Positions 16,179 to 24,828 of a stretch of 53,102 nucleotides of DNA are shown here, piece by piece. The stretch comes from a virus. Both the position numbers and the translations under genes were made by a program. Position 1 is the stretch's first letter, and each line of letters begins with the position of its first letter. The notes under the pieces are model-generated. The model saw nothing but the letters and a program-made list of their open reading frames with translations. It was not told the origin of the DNA and searched no databases. The stretch spans positions 1 through 53,102 of IMG/VR virus record IMGVR_UViG_3300044837_000127; one strand, 5' to 3'.

Positions 16179-17696
16179 ATGGCCGCATGGTACGTCAGCA
16201 GCGTCGGATGGACGGCGGTTACGCCTTGGGCCGCGCTGACCAGCTACAGCGTTGGGGACTTGCGCCGCCAGCTCGCCGCGCCGAGCGTCGGCAACGAGCG
16301 CGTCTGGCGCTGCACCACGGCGGGGGTTAGCGGCGCCGCCGAGCCGACATGGACGCTGACCAAGGGCAGCACGACCAACGACGGCACGGCTGTCTGGACG
16401 GAGGTTACGGGGAGCAGCACGTATAACTCGGCGTCCTCCTATGCGGCACCCCACGCCCGGACTGTTAATGCTATTGCCTGGGGCGCGGCTGGCGACGATT
16501 ACTATTTTCCAGCGTCTCATGCTGAAACACGAGCCAACACGCTCACAATAACATTCAACGGCACGAGCACGGCTCCAGATCGTGCTTTGTGCGTCGATTC
16601 TTCTGGCGTCTTAACAACCGGAGCGTCCATCACAGTTACGGGTAATTTTGCGCTTACCCTAGCCGGTGTAGTTTATGGGTATGGGATTACGTTTAATTGT
16701 GGCACGGGGTCATCGGCCTCAGCCAATCTTAACATATCCAATGCCAACGGCAGCATTCAGACGTGGGAAGCCTGCGCTTTTAATCTGATAACCACATCAG
16801 GTTCTGCCGGGATAGTCACAGGGGGGGGTTCGGCGTCCTCCTTGGCCACCCTCGTTAACTGCACCCTGTCTTTCGGCGCTACCGGGCAATCGCTTAAGCT
16901 GGGCAGTTCAAAGACGACCATAGCCTCTAAGCCGGGTTCCGTATTTGTAACAGGCGCGACAGTACCGACGACGCTGGTTTCGACGCAAAATGCTGGGGCG
17001 GCCCTTGTCATGAGCGGCCTTGATCTTAGTGCGTCCGGCTCGGGGGTAACGCTTTTTGGAGCTAGCTCTTTGGCTGTTGCCAACATCGTAAATTGCAAAC
17101 TTAACGCCAGTGTTACCGTCGCGGCCACCCCCACAAATGCGCTGTTTATTGGCCCGGACCTCATCGGCTGCAACTCGACAACCAACGTCGAGCGCAATGA
17201 GCGCTACCGCTACCAAGGCACCCTCACTACCGAATTGACGATCATCCGCACGGCTGGCGCGTCGGACGGCACGACGGCCTACAGTTGGAAGATCGTCACC
17301 ACCGCCAACAGCAAGCGCACCTTCCCCTTCGAGACATTCGAAGGCGCGATCTGGAACGATGCGATCGGCTCGCCGCTGACACTCACCGTCCACACCGTTA
17401 CGGACAATGTGACCCTGACCGATGCTGAAATTTGGGTTGAGGTCGAATATCTCGGCAGCTCGGCAACGCCGGTCGCAACGCTTATCACCGATGCCAACGC
17501 CACGGTGCTGACGACCCCGGCCAATCAGACGAGCGACAGTGGCACCGCTTGGACCACCACGGACCTTGGTACGCCCGTCAAACAGCAACTTAACGTCACC
17601 TTTACCCCCCAGATGAAGGGTCCGGTCCGCTTCCGGGTTAAGGTCGCCAAGGCGTCCACCACCGTTTACGTCGATCCCAAAGCGGACCTCGCGTAA
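16179..17696 (+). CDS. Tail spike/fibre protein with mosaic central region
   Basis: 505 aa. N-terminal ~80 residues are a carbohydrate-binding-like module (VWRCTTAGVSGAAEPTWTL...AVWTEVTG). The middle, about residues 105-330, has short Gly/Ser/Asn-rich strands of the sort that form beta-helices. The C-terminal third is a beta-sandwich-like domain. The DNA of the middle, about 16480-17180, is visibly richer in A and T and uses codons that neighbours avoid, and holds a G8 run at 16821-16828. This suggests the receptor-binding part was acquired from elsewhere. No enzyme motif was found. Confidence 0.65.
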   Translation: MAAWYVSSVGWTAVTPWAALTSYSVGDLRRQLAAPSVGNERVWRCTTAGVSGAAEPTWTLTKGSTTNDGTAVWTEVTGSSTYNSASSYAAPHARTVNAIAWGAAGDDYYFPASHAETRANTLTITFNGTSTAPDRALCVDSSGVLTTGASITVTGNFALTLAGVVYGYGITFNCGTGSSASANLNISNANGSIQTWEACAFNLITTSGSAGIVTGGGSASSLATLVNCTLSFGATGQSLKLGSSKTTIASKPGSVFVTGATVPTTLVSTQNAGAALVMSGLDLSASGSGVTLFGASSLAVANIVNCKLNASVTVAATPTNALFIGPDLIGCNSTTNVERNERYRYQGTLTTELTIIRTAGASDGTTAYSWKIVTTANSKRTFPFETFEGAIWNDAIGSPLTLTVHTVTDNVTLTDAEIWVEVEYLGSSATPVATLITDANATVLTTPANQTSDSGTAWTTTDLGTPVKQQLNVTFTPQMKGPVRFRVKVAKASTTVYVDPKADLA

Positions 17697-18862
17697 TGTC
17701 TCGGCAATGGGTCGGACCCTCCGGCACATTGACCGAAGAAACCGGCACGCGGCAATGGGTCGGGCCGGGCGGAACACTGGTTGAGGAAACGGCCAGTATA
17801 TCGGGGTCCGCCACGACCACCCTTGGCGCCGCGGCGGCCAGCGCGGCCAGCACCGTCAAAATCCAGGGGACGGCCAATACCTCCACCAGCCCGCTGACCG
17901 CAGTAGCAACCGGCGCCATCGGTATCCACGGTGCGGCCAGTACCGCTCTAGCCCCGGCAACGGGAGTCGACGTGGCAACCGACCGCATCAGCGGGACCGC
18001 CAGCACCACCCTTGGCGCCGCGACCGGCAGTACCACGGGCACCCTTCCGATCCACGGCACGGCCAATACCACCGCCAGCAATCTGACCGCATCGGCCCAA
18101 GGCGTTCTGGTCCTGCAGGCGGTCAGCATCGTCACGCTTGCCGAAGCGACCGGCATTGATACCGGAACGGAACGCATTGTCGGAACCGTGGCAACGATCC
18201 TTGCCGATGCGACCGGCAGCGAGGCGGCGACCGATCGTATCTCGGCATTCGCAGCGACCACGCTATCCCCCGCAACCGCACTTACCGCCGGCCTCCTTCC
18301 GATTCACGGCGCGGCCAGCATCACCCTTGCCAATGCAACCGGCGTTGAGGCCGGAACCGGCGGGATCGTGGGGTCCGTCAGCACCACCCTTGGCGCGGTG
18401 ATACTGGCCGCCCCATCGCAACCCCGGCAATGGGTCGGGCCGCGAGGGACGTTAATCCAGGAAACCGGCCAGCGGCAATGGGTCGGTCCCTCCGGCACTC
18501 TGATCCAGGAGACTGCGGGCACTGGCGGACCCAACGGGCGCTTGCGGCTCCAGGGCAGCGTGACCATTACCCTTAGTCCTGCCAGCGCGAGCGGTGCCGG
18601 CCGCCTCTCAATCCACGGCGCGTCGGTCCATGCGCTTGACCCGTTGGTCGCCAGTGCGGTCAGCGCGCTCCGTCTCCACGCGGCCAATGATACCGACCTT
18701 GCGCCCCTTACCGCCGAAGCCGCCGGGCTTCATTATGCGCTGCCCGATAATTGCCGTGTGTTGCGGATAGCGCGCCAAGACCGTATCGTGCGCGTGGCCC
18801 GGCAGGACCGAACAATCCGGGTGCCCTATCAGGATCGGGCGATCAAGGTGAGGGCGTGCTAG
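17696..18862 (+). CDS. Repeat-built fibre-region protein
   Basis: 388 aa made of three repeat families. RQWVGPSGTL-x-EET occurs four times, in two pairs at residues ~3-30 and ~243-270. A ~20-22 residue unit of the type ISGTASTTLGAATGS recurs about ten times between and after them. Four RxxRxxRQDRxIRV-type units end the protein (from residue ~355). No family recognised. Its position among fibre genes suggests a long, extended virion protein. The ATG overlaps the preceding TAA. Confidence 0.6.
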   Translation: MSRQWVGPSGTLTEETGTRQWVGPGGTLVEETASISGSATTTLGAAAASAASTVKIQGTANTSTSPLTAVATGAIGIHGAASTALAPATGVDVATDRISGTASTTLGAATGSTTGTLPIHGTANTTASNLTASAQGVLVLQAVSIVTLAEATGIDTGTERIVGTVATILADATGSEAATDRISAFAATTLSPATALTAGLLPIHGAASITLANATGVEAGTGGIVGSVSTTLGAVILAAPSQPRQWVGPRGTLIQETGQRQWVGPSGTLIQETAGTGGPNGRLRLQGSVTITLSPASASGAGRLSIHGASVHALDPLVASAVSALRLHAANDTDLAPLTAEAAGLHYALPDNCRVLRIARQDRIVRVARQDRTIRVPYQDRAIKVRAC

Positions 18863-20385: not shown

Positions 20386-20970
20386 ATCCTTTATCGGTTT
20401 CCATTCGGCGCACGTTCTACCGGAGCGAATCGGGTAGGGGCCAATATACGGTTGGGGGGGAATTCCGGCGTTTGCGCTCTTCCCACGGGCCAGCGGGTGC
20501 AAAGGCATCCCATCGTCCGTGGTGCCCAGACATAGTAAGGGGGACGAATTGTACCGGGTGAAAGCGCCCAGCATCCGCCGGCAATGCTCCGGGTGGCGGC
20601 GCATAGGTTCCGCTCCGAAAGCGACCACCAGCCGATCGGCCGCCCCTCCGATCAGCTCCAAGGCCCGTTCATTCGCCAGAATCATGTCTTCGGTGATGCG
20701 ACCCGCTGCCAACGCCGTCCAAAGGTCGCGTGGATACGGGGTGCGCCAGCTCCACATATTACCCAGCAGAGACATGCCACCCCCGTGGTCATCGCTGGTG
20801 GTCACGGTCCGTCCGCATGTAGGGTCATCTATCAGATGGCTGGCCACGGACGGATTGGTCATCAGCCATGCGAAGACGAGCCGCGAGCCGTCCCAGCAGC
20901 GATAGAGCATCGGCCGGCACTGGGGGATGCCGTCGGCATTGAAATTGGTCAGACTGGCGCCCCGGAGCAT
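20383..20970 (-). CDS. DUF1643 protein
   Basis: 195 aa. Pattern: YRCWDGSRLVFAWLMTNPS, DDPTCGRTV, LLGNMWSWRTPYPRDLW, VVAFGAEP, and the late GMPLHPL. DUF1643 proteins are common in phages; the role is unproven, and the NPSxAxxxxxDPT motif suggests a nucleotide-related or nuclease-like site. Its ATG overlaps the stop of the polymerase ORF, so it belongs to the replication operon. A C7 run lies in its coding strand. Confidence 0.8.
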   Translation of the reverse strand: MLRGASLTNFNADGIPQCRPMLYRCWDGSRLVFAWLMTNPSVASHLIDDPTCGRTVTTSDDHGGGMSLLGNMWSWRTPYPRDLWTALAAGRITEDMILANERALELIGGAADRLVVAFGAEPMRRHPEHCRRMLGAFTRYNSSPLLCLGTTDDGMPLHPLARGKSANAGIPPQPYIGPYPIRSGRTCAEWKPIKD

Positions 20971-23231
20971 CAGACCTTCCTATAGACTCGGCCTCGCCAG
21001 CCGCCTTCGGCCCGGATGGGCCAATCGTGCGCAAAGGGCGGCGGGGTCGACAAGATCCCTTCCACATGCCCCACCGTCCCAAAGCCGTGCGGAACCTCCA
21101 GGACCACTTCGTCATAAACCTCCATGACCGGGACCGGATAGCCGGCGGCAATCAGCGCTTTGATGCCGTGGCGCTGGATTTCCACTTCATGACCCATAAC
21201 CACGTTTTCCGTCAGCGAGCCCCCATAGGTGGACAGCCGTTGCCAGCCGGGCGCCCCGCGCTTGGGGTTGCTGTTATATCCGGAATAGCTGATGGCCAAT
21301 TCGTCCATATTACGATCGGACTGGGCGAGCCGCGGGTGCCAATAAGTCAGCGAGCGAAGCCCGCTTAACAGACCGATCGTCAGCTTGTCCGTGGTCGCAT
21401 CATAGAGAAACGGCATTCCCCGGAACGTATAGACCACGCCGGGCGACTGGAGCGCGGCGATAAAATAGCCTTCCATGCCATAGAGTTCCGCCCGTTCGCG
21501 CCGCCAGGGCGGGCCGCGCCACTGGCCACCCCAGAACTCAACGATGGCGGGATTGGCCGCACGCCACGCGAGAATCTGGGTTCGGATTACATCGTCGGGC
21601 TCTTCGGATCCGAAAGCGCGGTAACTGGGAATCCAGCCTTGGAATCCGCAATTATGAACCAGCAGATGGCCGGTGGCCGTCTGGATCGTAAATCGGTTCC
21701 GCGGCCCCGCATGTGCAATGTCGTAAACGGGCTCGCAAGGCGTCCAGCTCGCGCTGCATCGCTTGGATAGATCGTTTGTTGCCAGTATTCGCTCGGCGCG
21801 TAACAAAGCGGAGATTGCCCGGCTCATAGTTACCATCCGTTTCGATACGATCAAGCTCCAGCGCCGGTTGATCCCAGCCGTCCAGAGTGACAAGGTAGGC
21901 CAGAAATTCGCGACGTCCGTCCGTACCATTAGTCCAGGGCTCATGGACGCGAATTCCGCGTTTTCCATAGTTGGGGTGGCCCTCTGGTCGACACCGAGTA
22001 AGGCAGGCTGAAATTCGGTTAAGAAGGCGGCGTCGGTGCCCATCATCCGGCACGATGACGGCGTATTTCCAAAACATTTTTTGGTATGCGCCAGCCGCTT
22101 TTCGGGCGCATACCCCGCAGCGAGTGCTAGCCCCCTTGCGAAGATTAGAAGCCGCAACATAGTACGGTTTCGAATCGCACCCACCGCACGTAACCAAAAT
22201 CGAGCTAACGGCCCCCCACTTGCCGTATCCAACCACGGTAAGCTGGCCGAACCTGTCGCCAATGCTTGGCGGAGCATGGTGCGGTTGGAAACGAGTCGGC
22301 TTGCCGGCTTCCAAAAACCGTTCAAGAATATCAGATGATTCGGGGTCATCCCGACGCCATCCAGGCGGACGGTCTCCGCGATACCCTTTGCGACTACCCC
22401 CGCATGGCAAACCCATTCCACCCCATCCCAAAGTAAATCGGTTAGACGAACAGCCACAATATCCACGTATCCGCGGGCCGTCAACACTTGGGTTTGACGG
22501 TTGAAACAAGCAAGCTCGGAAACCTTGCCGATCTTTTGGCGGTCCGGGTGGTGCTGGCGGTACGCTGGGTCCGGGTGCGATTGCTCCCAATACCGGAGGT
22601 ACTCCGAAACCGGCACCCCCGTAATCTTACTCGCCCCCAGCAAGTAAATCGGCTTGCCAGCACGGAAGGCATCGATACGCCATTGCTCGCCCGCGAGACA
22701 GGCCAGCACCACGGCTTGCAAGCTGCTGTAATCGGTAGCGATGAAATCGTAACCATCCGCGGCGATGAACAGTGACCGGATGCAGCCGGATATGGCCAGC
22801 AGGGCGTCCCCGAAGAACCGTTCCACCATGCCCAGATCCCGCGTGGCCATAATCTCCAGCACGAAGGGGACCATTTCCACGGTCCATTCCCGGCGCCGAT
22901 CGGCCGCGCCCAGGTTTCCGCACCATGGGCAGAACGGCGCGAGCTTATGGGGGCGGAGGCATTTTTCGCACCAGACCAGCCTGGGGCCGGCCTTCGGGAG
23001 ATTTAGCGGTTGAACCGCCCCGCCCGTAGGGCGCCCTGGCTGCGTTCCGTGATGGATGATAAGGTCGCGAAGGCGGTTGTCGCGGCACGCCTGGTTATCC
23101 ATCGCGTAGAGTTTTTTAACGCTTGCGGAGGCGGTTAGCTGACGGAGCTCCAGTACCCGCCGCACGTCCGCCGGCAAGTCGAGTCGCTCCAGAGCCGCGC
23201 TTACCGTTTCGCTGTCCAGAGAGGCTATCAT
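20970..23231 (-). CDS. Family-A DNA polymerase, polymerase domain, with intein
   Basis: 753-aa precursor that would give a ~467-aa polymerase domain after intein removal. Extein features: GRPTGGAVQPLNLPK (template grip), CEKC/CPWC zinc ribbon near residue 88, motif A DYSSLQAVVLACLAG near residue 167, motif B RQKIGKVSELA-CGFQGW split by the intein, motif C VYDEVVLEV near residue 700. Motif A has Gln where family-A enzymes have the steric-gate Glu, and motif C has Tyr for the usual His. The 3'-5' exonuclease domain is a separate ORF (23920-24828), because a GIY-YIG gene lies between them. The ATG overlaps that gene's stop. Confidence 0.85.
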   Translation of the reverse strand: MIASLDSETVSAALERLDLPADVRRVLELRQLTASASVKKLYAMDNQACRDNRLRDLIIHHGTQPGRPTGGAVQPLNLPKAGPRLVWCEKCLRPHKLAPFCPWCGNLGAADRRREWTVEMVPFVLEIMATRDLGMVERFFGDALLAISGCIRSLFIAADGYDFIATDYSSLQAVVLACLAGEQWRIDAFRAGKPIYLLGASKITGVPVSEYLRYWEQSHPDPAYRQHHPDRQKIGKVSELACFNRQTQVLTARGYVDIVAVRLTDLLWDGVEWVCHAGVVAKGIAETVRLDGVGMTPNHLIFLNGFWKPASRLVSNRTMLRQALATGSASLPWLDTASGGPLARFWLRAVGAIRNRTMLRLLIFARGLALAAGYAPEKRLAHTKKCFGNTPSSCRMMGTDAAFLTEFQPALLGVDQRATPTMENAEFASMSPGLMVRTDVANFWPTLSLWTAGINRRWSLIVSKRMVTMSRAISALLRAERILATNDLSKRCSASWTPCEPVYDIAHAGPRNRFTIQTATGHLLVHNCGFQGWIPSYRAFGSEEPDDVIRTQILAWRAANPAIVEFWGGQWRGPPWRRERAELYGMEGYFIAALQSPGVVYTFRGMPFLYDATTDKLTIGLLSGLRSLTYWHPRLAQSDRNMDELAISYSGYNSNPKRGAPGWQRLSTYGGSLTENVVMGHEVEIQRHGIKALIAAGYPVPVMEVYDEVVLEVPHGFGTVGHVEGILSTPPPFAHDWPIRAEGGWRGRVYRKV
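21651..22508 (-). mobile_element. Intein in polymerase motif B
   Basis: 286 residues, from Cys242 to Asn527 of the precursor. Splicing blocks are visible: A, CFNRQTQVLTARGY; B, GMTPNHLIF with NGFWKPASRL after it; F, CEPVYDIAHAG; G, GHLLVHN followed by Cys of the extein. Removing it joins KVSELA to CGFQGW in the O-helix motif, the conserved active-site position that inteins favour. Roughly residues 330-495 show no homing-endonuclease motif in this frame. That stretch is the out-of-frame reading of an HNH gene. Confidence 0.85.
21652..22413 (-). CDS. HNH endonuclease encoded out of frame inside the intein
   Basis: A different frame of the intein DNA encodes a recognisable phage-type HNH protein over about 22263-21721. 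It reads IGDRFGQLTVVGYG, then CGGCDSKPYYVAASNLRKGAS with TRCGVC, then NRISACLTRCRPEGHPNYGKRGI and ELDRIETDGNYEPGNLRFVT. Its TAA uses bases of the His-Asn end of the intein. The best start is uncertain: ATG 22413, preceded by G-rich GGGATGGGG, gives 253 aa; TTG 22314 is another. Alternatively a frameshift joins it to the intein. It would be the homing nuclease of this intein. Confidence 0.75.
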   Translation of the reverse strand, partial: GLPCGGSRKGYRGDRPPGWRRDDPESSDILERFLEAGKPTRFQPHHAPPSIGDRFGQLTVVGYGKWGAVSSILVTCGGCDSKPYYVAASNLRKGASTRCGVCARKAAGAYQKMFWKYAVIVPDDGHRRRLLNRISACLTRCRPEGHPNYGKRGIRVHEPWTNGTDGRREFLAYLVTLDGWDQPALELDRIETDGNYEPGNLRFVTRRANTGNKRSIQAMQRELDALRARLRHCTCGAAEPIYDPDGHRPSAGS

Positions 23232-23884
23232 GCCTTTTTCGCTCGGTTGGTGGCCTGTAGTGTCTCCCGGCGCCGCGCGATGTAGTCGGCATAGCGGTCT
23301 GGATCGGCACGCAAGTCCACCCAGAATTGCTTAATCCCACGGCTGGCGGCTTCGGCCCTTTGTCGGACGTCTCCCTTGGCGCGCGCGGCCAACATTCGTT
23401 CTTGCTGGAGCGCTTTGAACGCCGGGTCTTCGGCGCATCGTCTTTTCAGAGTGGCGGAAATAGTGTCGAAAATTTGCCGCTTGCGCTTCGGGCTTCGGGA
23501 CGCCCAGACCCCCCGCGTGACTTCCGAAGACCGAAGACTATAGGCGGCATAAAATGTCGGGTCGGTACTAAGCCGGTGCCGTAAAGCGATGGGGCCGGTC
23601 AATGCGTCATAGTCTCCGCCCGGCGAAATGTTGTATCCGTCCGACCGGTCCGCGCTATTGAGCATGGCGATCAACGATATCTCTGCGGCTTTTGCGGCAA
23701 CAAGGTCTGGATGAGAAGAAACAATTTCCATCGTGAAGGCGTCCCGTCCGTATTTCTTCATGGCTCGATAAAGCGGATGAGCCTTTTTGCACTTTCGATG
23801 TTGACGCCAGCGTTCTTTGGGATTGTTGGTGATCCCCACGTACGCTTTGCCTGTTGGTCCCAGGATGACATAGAGATAGGTCAT
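23228..23884 (-). CDS. GIY-YIG homing endonuclease splitting the polymerase gene
   Basis: 218 aa. GIY-YIG core at the N-terminus: YLYVILGPTGKAYVGITNNPKERWRQH, then AMKKYGRDAF and the Glu of AAKAAEISLI. Basic tail with repeats of the KRRCAEDPAFKAL kind, probably DNA-binding. It lies exactly between the exonuclease and polymerase parts of the DNA polymerase and overlaps the second part (ATGA). This is the arrangement known for genes fragmented by free-standing homing endonucleases in T4-like phages. Confidence 0.9.
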   Translation of the reverse strand: MTYLYVILGPTGKAYVGITNNPKERWRQHRKCKKAHPLYRAMKKYGRDAFTMEIVSSHPDLVAAKAAEISLIAMLNSADRSDGYNISPGGDYDALTGPIALRHRLSTDPTFYAAYSLRSSEVTRGVWASRSPKRKRQIFDTISATLKRRCAEDPAFKALQQERMLAARAKGDVRQRAEAASRGIKQFWVDLRADPDRYADYIARRRETLQATNRAKKA

Positions 23885-23919
23885 TCAGATAGATTAAGCG
23901 GCTAAAGTTTCCACGTCAA

Positions 23920-24828
23920 CTAAAATGGGATATCGTCCGCTAAATCTTCATCATATTGCTGACTGAAGCCGTAACCGCCGGCACCGTTGGAGCGAAACGT
24001 CGGACCGTGCATCCTGCCCTGAATCCACCCCACAAGCGCTTGCACTTGGGACGGGCCGATACCGCCGGTTATCTCGCGGCATTCGGCGCCGTAGCGCTCC
24101 AGCACCGCCTCCAGCACCGCCCGGCAATCCAGCACCGCCGGCCGGTCAATGCCGATGCCTCGCCAATTCATTTCCTGATTGATCTGCCAGATTTCCAGCT
24201 CGCTGGGTGACATGGGCGGCATGGCGGAGCTGGCCGCTTGCTCCGTTTGCACGTCCCGATCGCAATAGAGGCATAGCCGTTCAAAATCTTCGGGGTCATC
24301 CTCCGGCCGGATCCGGCGCCGGCTATCGGCCTTGGTAGGGTTGCGGGGCACGCTGAATTTATCCAGCAGCCGCTTACCTTCCTTATCCTTCCGGGTTTCC
24401 AGCCGCAGCACGTCGCCCAGCGCGTCCAGCTTGCCGGGGAGGCTGTTGACGCGAGCCGTGGCCATGCTGCAGCGCTGGACTCCGGGAGGGAGCGGCGGCC
24501 ATCCGTACCGGGGAACGCAAACGTTCGCCCAGATCAGCCGTTCGAACATGGCGTTATGCGATTCGAGCTCCGCCCCTGGGCGCGTGACGTGGATGAACAA
24601 ATCTTCGGGCGGTGGCAGATGGGGACCAAGGCGCCGGATGCCTTTGCCGTCCAGCAGATCATAAGAGCCGGTCAGCACTTCGGTGGTTGGATGCTCGCTA
24701 TATGCGGGGGCCCCGACCGACTCCAGACCCTTTTTCCGGGCACCCTCCGGCATCCGCCATTTCTGGGTTGTTTCGTCCCATATATGGCCGGCTTCCGAAT
24801 AGGTTTCAAAGTCCAGGGCTGGGCGCAT
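23920..24828 (-). CDS. DNA polymerase A, 3'-5' exonuclease half, with SSB-like tail
   Basis: 302 aa. Exo I motif LDFETYS at the N-terminus, Exo II region ESHNAMFERLIW near residue 90, Exo III YCDRDVQTEQAA near residue 190. The protein follows full-length phage polymerases up to SQVQALVGWIQ near residue 262 and then changes. The new tail is Gly/Ser-rich and ends YDEDLADDIPF, very like the acidic DDDIPF tip by which bacterial SSB binds partner proteins. It must pair with the polymerase half encoded after the GIY-YIG gene. It starts three bases after the MazG-like gene. Confidence 0.85.
   Translation of the reverse strand: MRPALDFETYSEAGHIWDETTQKWRMPEGARKKGLESVGAPAYSEHPTTEVLTGSYDLLDGKGIRRLGPHLPPPEDLFIHVTRPGAELESHNAMFERLIWANVCVPRYGWPPLPPGVQRCSMATARVNSLPGKLDALGDVLRLETRKDKEGKRLLDKFSVPRNPTKADSRRRIRPEDDPEDFERLCLYCDRDVQTEQAASSAMPPMSPSELEIWQINQEMNWRGIGIDRPAVLDCRAVLEAVLERYGAECREITGGIGPSQVQALVGWIQGRMHGPTFRSNGAGGYGFSQQYDEDLADDIPF

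Follow-up and report, generated by a model that had tools for sequence, protein, structure and literature searches.

An HNH-type reading frame nested out of frame in the intein of a split phage DNA polymerase gene

An intein is usually described as one protein in which a splicing part and, often, a nuclease part are read in the same frame. The DNA considered here, a stretch of 53,102 nucleotides from a virus (IMG/VR record IMGVR_UViG_3300044837_000127; the whole stretch is called the window), raises the question of whether an intein may carry its mobility enzyme in another way, and what becomes of a polymerase gene that is also cut in two. Its family-A DNA polymerase (PolA) gene occupies two open reading frames (ORFs) on the minus strand with a GIY-YIG gene between them, and the polymerase half holds an intein. 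An earlier note on this DNA had credited the intein with an HNH nuclease. HNH-type sequence is indeed found there, but as a separate ORF in the -1 frame and not as a domain of the intein protein. From sequence comparison and structure models, we consider it very probable that this is a mobile intein whose mobility enzyme is a separate gene lying out of frame within the intein's own coding sequence, and that the GIY-YIG split of the polymerase is a separate addition.

The intein, its nested ORF and their relatives

The intein of 286 amino acids (21651-22508, minus strand; Hint N at about 22230-22508 and Hint C at about 21651-21743) is inserted in polymerase motif B between GKVSELA and CGFQG. 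It starts with a cysteine (C1), contains a TxxH block and ends in VHN before the +1 residue, which is Cys in the window and Ser in a few relatives. C1, T55, H58, H285 and N286 are invariant across nine aligned inteins. The full set of Hint splicing residues is present, and the presence of an intein in the polymerase half, claimed earlier, is borne out. The window intein also has a profile match to intein chains of the PDB. In the fold model, the Hint parts reach a predicted local distance difference test (pLDDT) score of about 72-90 and match the gp41-1 and Ssp DnaB mini-inteins in Foldseek with E of about 0.004-0.025. Judging from the conserved residues, the intein is predicted to be splicing-competent and should excise itself, restoring motif B.

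The nested HNH-type gene (21652-22416, minus strand; 254 amino acids plus TAA) lies in the -1 frame of the intein. These coordinates take the ATG at intein nucleotide (nt) 93 as its probable start; its TAA overlaps the terminal His-Asn codons of the intein. The intein frame stays open across the entire nested ORF, and over the stretch at 21744-22229 (minus strand; precursor residues of about 335-496) it encodes only an unconserved linker, which is predicted to be disordered with a pLDDT of about 25. In an alignment of the first nine inteins, the intein frame is free of stops and the -1 frame is open for about 740 nt, while the third frame contains 15-30 stops.

The nested protein is assigned to HNH endonucleases by the PHROG profiles (phrog_374, E 6e-25). 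Its model combines an SH3-like barrel with a zinc-type region and a beta-beta-alpha element (predicted strands at 187-190 and 202-205, helix at 207-233); most of residues 1-33, the part overlapping Hint N, is disordered. A Foldseek search with this model returns phage HNH proteins in BFVD, a collection of predicted viral structures, and among the HNH-frame proteins of those nine inteins four cysteines are invariant and a core is conserved. On these profiles and models, the nested ORF probably encodes a DNA-cutting mobility enzyme.

The arrangement is not confined to the window. In public data, the HNH-type ORF was found out of frame in 147 distinct phage inteins, 83 in the -1 and 64 in the +1 frame, a number to be read as "at least" for inteins with this hidden arrangement. 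In the window and in all 147, the endonuclease is in a different frame from Hint; no in-frame HNH was seen (0/147), although the search was seeded from out-of-frame members and in-frame cousins of other HNH families are possible. No stop was found in the intein frame of the 82 and 68 inteins scored. An IMG/VR scan with the HNH alignment yielded 80 loci, and wherever the intein is visible its Hint flanks are in a different frame from the HNH match. A second HNH set, drawn from inteins that include those of Shewanella phage SFCi1, Gardnerella phage AB1 and Streptococcus phage Javan101, added 59 more in the +1 frame. Some polymerases carry two inteins each, one with a -1-frame and one with a +1-frame HNH (L040, L048 and L093). 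The +1 class also occurs in other genes (the second intein of L123, and L150, L152, L155-L157, L163 and L168); judged by eye from the flanking peptides, the host of these non-polymerase members would be a phage SNF2-type helicase. The +1 HNH also has free-standing relatives (L160, L162, L164-L167, L169-L172 and L174-L179).

Selection and expression of the nested frame

Substitution patterns indicate which frame is constrained. Most substitutions in the HNH core of the -1 class, counted in 13 disjoint pairs, hit HNH codon position 3 (691, vs 163 and 224 at the other two). On both sides of the core, the excess belongs to the intein frame: substitutions at its positions 3, 1 and 2 number 87, 47 and 24 in Hint N (nt 1-90; 87/158 at the third) and 87, 27 and 14 in Hint C (87/128 at the third). 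From this phase of substitution it follows that the constrained frame shifts by one inside the intein and then shifts back. The +1 class shows the same third-position excess in its own HNH frame (581 vs 245 and 225).

The window itself behaves likewise. Compared with seven relatives, its HNH frame retains 50-64% amino acid identity, and the differences per pair number 94-108 at HNH position 3, as against 41-63 and 40-57 at positions 1 and 2. Read in the intein frame against five of the seven, identity is 22-26% in the linker, 46-59% in Hint N and 61-74% in Hint C. To score the openness of the intein frame, synonymous codons were shuffled with the HNH amino acids unchanged. The intein frame stays open in 2.1% of trials for the window, in 0-1.2% for six of nine inteins (L002, L003, L012, L013, L014 and L015) and in 4.5% for L005.

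The start of the nested ORF is marked by the base before a conserved Trp codon, TGG: of 75 inteins, 59 have A there, 14 have G, 2 have T and none has C, a base that makes up 23% of the other Hint N third bases. Where the codon before TGG is four-fold degenerate, A is used in 17/19. Because of this bias, the ATG or GTG at nt 93 is taken to be kept beyond the need of the intein frame. Such a start codon, mostly ATG, opens the nested frame in 74/83 of the -1 inteins. The stretch just upstream pairs with the anti-Shine-Dalgarno sequence at a mean of -6.75 kcal/mol, which ranks first among 11 positions tested; part of this value may come from the conserved WDG codons. In the GenBank record of Salmonella phage LPSE1, the nested ORF is entered as a hypothetical protein that begins at exactly nt 93. 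Internal initiation at the nt-93 ATG is the most likely origin of the nested protein on these sequence grounds.

Two other accounts of the nested frame have to be weighed. Programmed ribosomal frameshifting, in the -1 or +1 direction according to class, would fuse the N part of the polymerase and Hint N to the nuclease. In its favour, the offsets of the two classes correspond to the directions in which frameshifts usually occur, and neither frame is closed by a stop in the overlap; in the window, the nested frame even runs open through the entire intein. However, no slippery heptamer is conserved in the tested stretch, where any such heptamer is present in only 18/83 inteins, many inteins have a nested-frame stop shortly before nt 93, and the start codon there is conserved beyond what the intein frame needs. 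We regard frameshifting as improbable. The nested ORF might instead be a chance product or a dead relic kept open by base composition, with only the intein frame functional: the GC content of the intein, 57%, makes the window fairly GC-rich and favours long spurious ORFs, and the activity of the nested ORF is a prediction. This account is hardly credible, given that the substitution phase of the core tracks the nested frame, that the identity to the seven relatives is far higher there than in the overlapping intein frame, and that the third frame is full of stops.

Several points weigh against a mobile intein with a functional nested nuclease gene. Splicing, nuclease activity and expression of the nested ORF are all deduced from sequences and models. 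The nested protein has no match in Pfam. Its model has no significant match in the PDB, where the best rows cover only the SH3/Tudor-like barrel at 48-95, and the family reads LDRI where a classical HNH has its first catalytic His. The HNH label is based on PHROG profiles, on structures predicted for viral proteins and on the beta-beta-alpha element predicted here. For the intein of Vibrio phage 97.13 (L006), the openness test is not significant on its own (22%, P 0.22). In L026/L027 and L184, a stop follows nt 93, so that a later start would be needed. Finally, related loci are not independent, and the counts therefore overstate the number of events.

If the nested ORF is nonetheless a mobility gene, the element would work as follows. 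Translation in the polymerase frame would give the polymerase half with a splicing-competent intein that has a frame-shifted, disordered linker in its middle, and the intein, to judge from its splicing residues, would then excise itself. The HNH-type protein would be made by internal initiation at 22416, aided by the Shine-Dalgarno-like pairing, and would end at or just before the last codons of the intein. It would presumably cut intein-free polA alleles, whose repair would copy the whole element (homing). The GIY-YIG insertion would be an event separate from this intein.

Mobility, precedents and significance

Two Vibrio phages that both infect V. mediterranei, 97.13 and 367.14, are 90% and 93% identical on the two flanks. 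What distinguishes them between these flanks is exactly the 855-bp intein, and the sequences join at the same codon. Among 77 of the -1 inteins, the mean distance between phages is 0.49 for Hint and 0.46 for HNH, vs 0.66 for the exteins, and the distances of Hint and HNH are correlated (r 0.66). These data fit an intein that moves as a unit between polymerases, although slower evolution could partly account for the higher similarity of inteins than of exteins.

The principle of an out-of-frame nuclease has its closest published precedent in the ShiLan element, an HNH endonuclease inserted out of frame in an actinobacteriophage DNA methylase (PMC11855218). As in the window, an HNH-type ORF is nested in a host gene that stays open, and a stop codon is present in the last bases of the element; a disjunct distribution suggests homing of ShiLan (PMC11855218), as it does for the present set. 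In ShiLan, however, neither intein nor intron splicing domains can be detected, and the element presumably remains part of the methylase (PMC11855218). In the window, the nest lies within an intein with complete Hint splicing residues, and the arrangement is found in PolA and some other genes of many phages.

Another counterpart is the polymerase intein of Jerseyviruses such as Salmonella phage vB_SenS-Ent2 (HG934469; L014), which belongs to the same intein family, sits in the same site region and contains the same nested HNH-type ORF. Unlike the window, its polymerase has no GIY-YIG split, and the intein is annotated as "encoding splicing domains" only. Inteins of Jerseyvirus polymerases annotated in this way are among the out-of-frame HNH inteins, and "endonuclease-free" inteins of this kind may be mobile. 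A 2025 preprint by Gosselin et al. (bioRxiv 10.1101/2025.01.02.630785) on actinobacteriophage inteins reportedly describes a "non-canonical architecture"; going by its title and by how it is cited in the ShiLan report, it seems to concern inteins with overlapping reading frames, so that it may describe the present principle and could lower the novelty of this finding. With ShiLan as a precedent in which no intein is involved, we hold the novelty of an out-of-frame HNH in an intein with moderate confidence.

We lean towards the view that two separate intein lineages have uncoupled splicing from mobility. The homing nuclease would be an independent gene in an overlapping frame that uses conserved codons of the intein as its start (xxA-TGG) and, in some members, as its stop (CAT-AAY). 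If this is true, nuclease genes settle in inteins as genes in their own right and then endure over long periods under dual coding. Out-of-frame HNH inteins offer a test of how nuclease genes enter inteins, and a mobility gene that overlaps a splicing gene in another frame provides a large natural set of dual-coding genes.

The split of the polymerase gene

The exonuclease half, i.e. the N-terminal half of the split polymerase, is an ORF of 302 amino acids at 23920-24828 (minus strand) with a phrog_17 DNA polymerase match (E 6e-22). The C-terminal polymerase half, which includes the intein, is an ORF of 753 amino acids at 20970-23231 (minus strand). It matches phrog_17 (E 6e-27) and, under the gathering score, PF00476 (E 4e-6), and its AF2 model retrieves both PolA and inteins in Foldseek. 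Motifs A (DYSSLQ), B (GKVSELA..CGFQG) and C (YDE) line up with those of relatives, as is characteristic of family A. Between the halves lies a putative free-standing homing GIY-YIG endonuclease gene (23228-23884, minus strand; 218 amino acids), the product of which contains the catalytic domain (PF01541, E 7e-11; 42.7 bits vs a cut-off of 22.6) and matches homing endonucleases in phrog_314 (E 4e-20). The stop of this gene and the start of the polymerase half share the ATGA at 23228-23231. The order of the three ORFs on one strand and the ATGA overlap stand as the earlier note had described them.

The split point could be placed precisely by aligning the halves with intact PolA, as that note had proposed. 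The exonuclease half aligns with the N-terminal part of fused PolA as far as GWIQGR; fused relatives continue with G-V-x-x-SLD (GWL..GV..SLD), and the C-terminal half opens with M-IASLD. Since the end of one half and the start of the other match the junction of fused relatives, almost no coding sequence was lost at the split. The two parts form one ORF in 80/86 relatives in which both are visible. With phrog_17 on both halves and PF01541 between them, sequence supports the insertion of the GIY-YIG gene at the exonuclease/polymerase boundary, splitting the PolA gene. No pair of empty and filled sites close to the window was found for the GIY-YIG gene.

Is the polymerase really in two parts? If the GIY-YIG gene lay within a self-splicing intron, the parts would be joined at the RNA level. 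Group I introns are a common location for GIY-YIG genes, and the GIY-YIG protein has a weak match, below the cut-off, to the TIGR01453 group I intron endonuclease. Against this, the insert is about 0.78 kb, of which 657 bases are the GIY-YIG ORF, ending at the first codons of the C-terminal half, which leaves little room for an intron core. A group I intron around the gene was rejected, as no Rfam match to an intron RNA family was obtained in the split region at the gathering level or in a permissive search; we judge an intron very unlikely. It is somewhat less unlikely, but still doubtful, that the two-part polymerase is non-functional and that the phage uses another polymerase encoded outside this record, which may be a fragment; splitting by mobile genes can inactivate. 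Both halves, however, align along their length with fused PolA and contain neither a stop nor a frameshift. A second match to the polymerase half, the finding that would have spoken against a split enzyme according to the earlier note, is absent from the 53,102 bases of this possibly incomplete record.

A polymerase that works in two parts is the reading we prefer. Trans-assembly of the halves without joining is plausible, given that the break has no intein half and that neither an intron nor a second polymerase was matched. Translation of the C-terminal half would probably be coupled by way of the ATGA overlap, and the halves would associate without being joined. A comparable case is Aeromonas phage 25, in which gene 43 is split with seg43 and the two products co-purify and polymerise (PMC2988022). 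There, too, a polymerase gene is in two parts with a GIY-YIG-type homing gene (PMC2988022), but the enzyme is of the B type and has no intein with a nested nuclease. The window would add a family-A polymerase to the genes cut by a GIY-YIG gene, here with no means of rejoining the parts.

The combination of split and intein had been thought unusual, but it is not unique to the window. When relatives were surveyed for intact and split versions, two (L025, 778-4806; L078, 735-5127) were found to have PolA broken within a split intein, with a related GIY-YIG gene between Hint N and Hint C. The same PolA genes carry a second, contiguous intein with an out-of-frame HNH, i.e. of the same kind as in the window. 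The split intein of L025 and L078 could rejoin the halves by trans-splicing, in contrast to the window, whose break is without intein parts and whose halves could therefore only associate.

Other two-part polymerases were seen among the loci. In L082, the polymerase is in two ORFs with another gene between them (2219-2929), and in its relative L070 the two polymerase ORFs abut with a 4-base overlap (2926-2929). In Escherichia phage ST4 (L017, 684-4106), an HNH gene separates the two ORFs of a PolA-type polymerase, and the first junction overlaps by 4 bases.

Two features of the window's halves can be added. The exonuclease half has a 30-amino-acid tail (23920-24009, minus strand; ...DEDLADDIPF, ending in ...SQQYDEDLADDIPF) that was not found in fused relatives. 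The SQQYDEDLADDIPF ending resembles the acidic C-terminal tail of bacterial SSB. The tail has no match in phages or the PDB, and no other ORF of at least 40 amino acids in the window ends in this way. Motif A (about 22716-22733, minus strand) is DYSSLQ in the window, as it is in L002, with Gln at the position of the steric-gate Glu; in other relatives the motif is DYSAIE, DYSSIE or DFSAIE. Elsewhere in the window, an ORF at 17696-18862 (plus strand) encodes repeated peptides of the type RQWVGPSGTLxEET.
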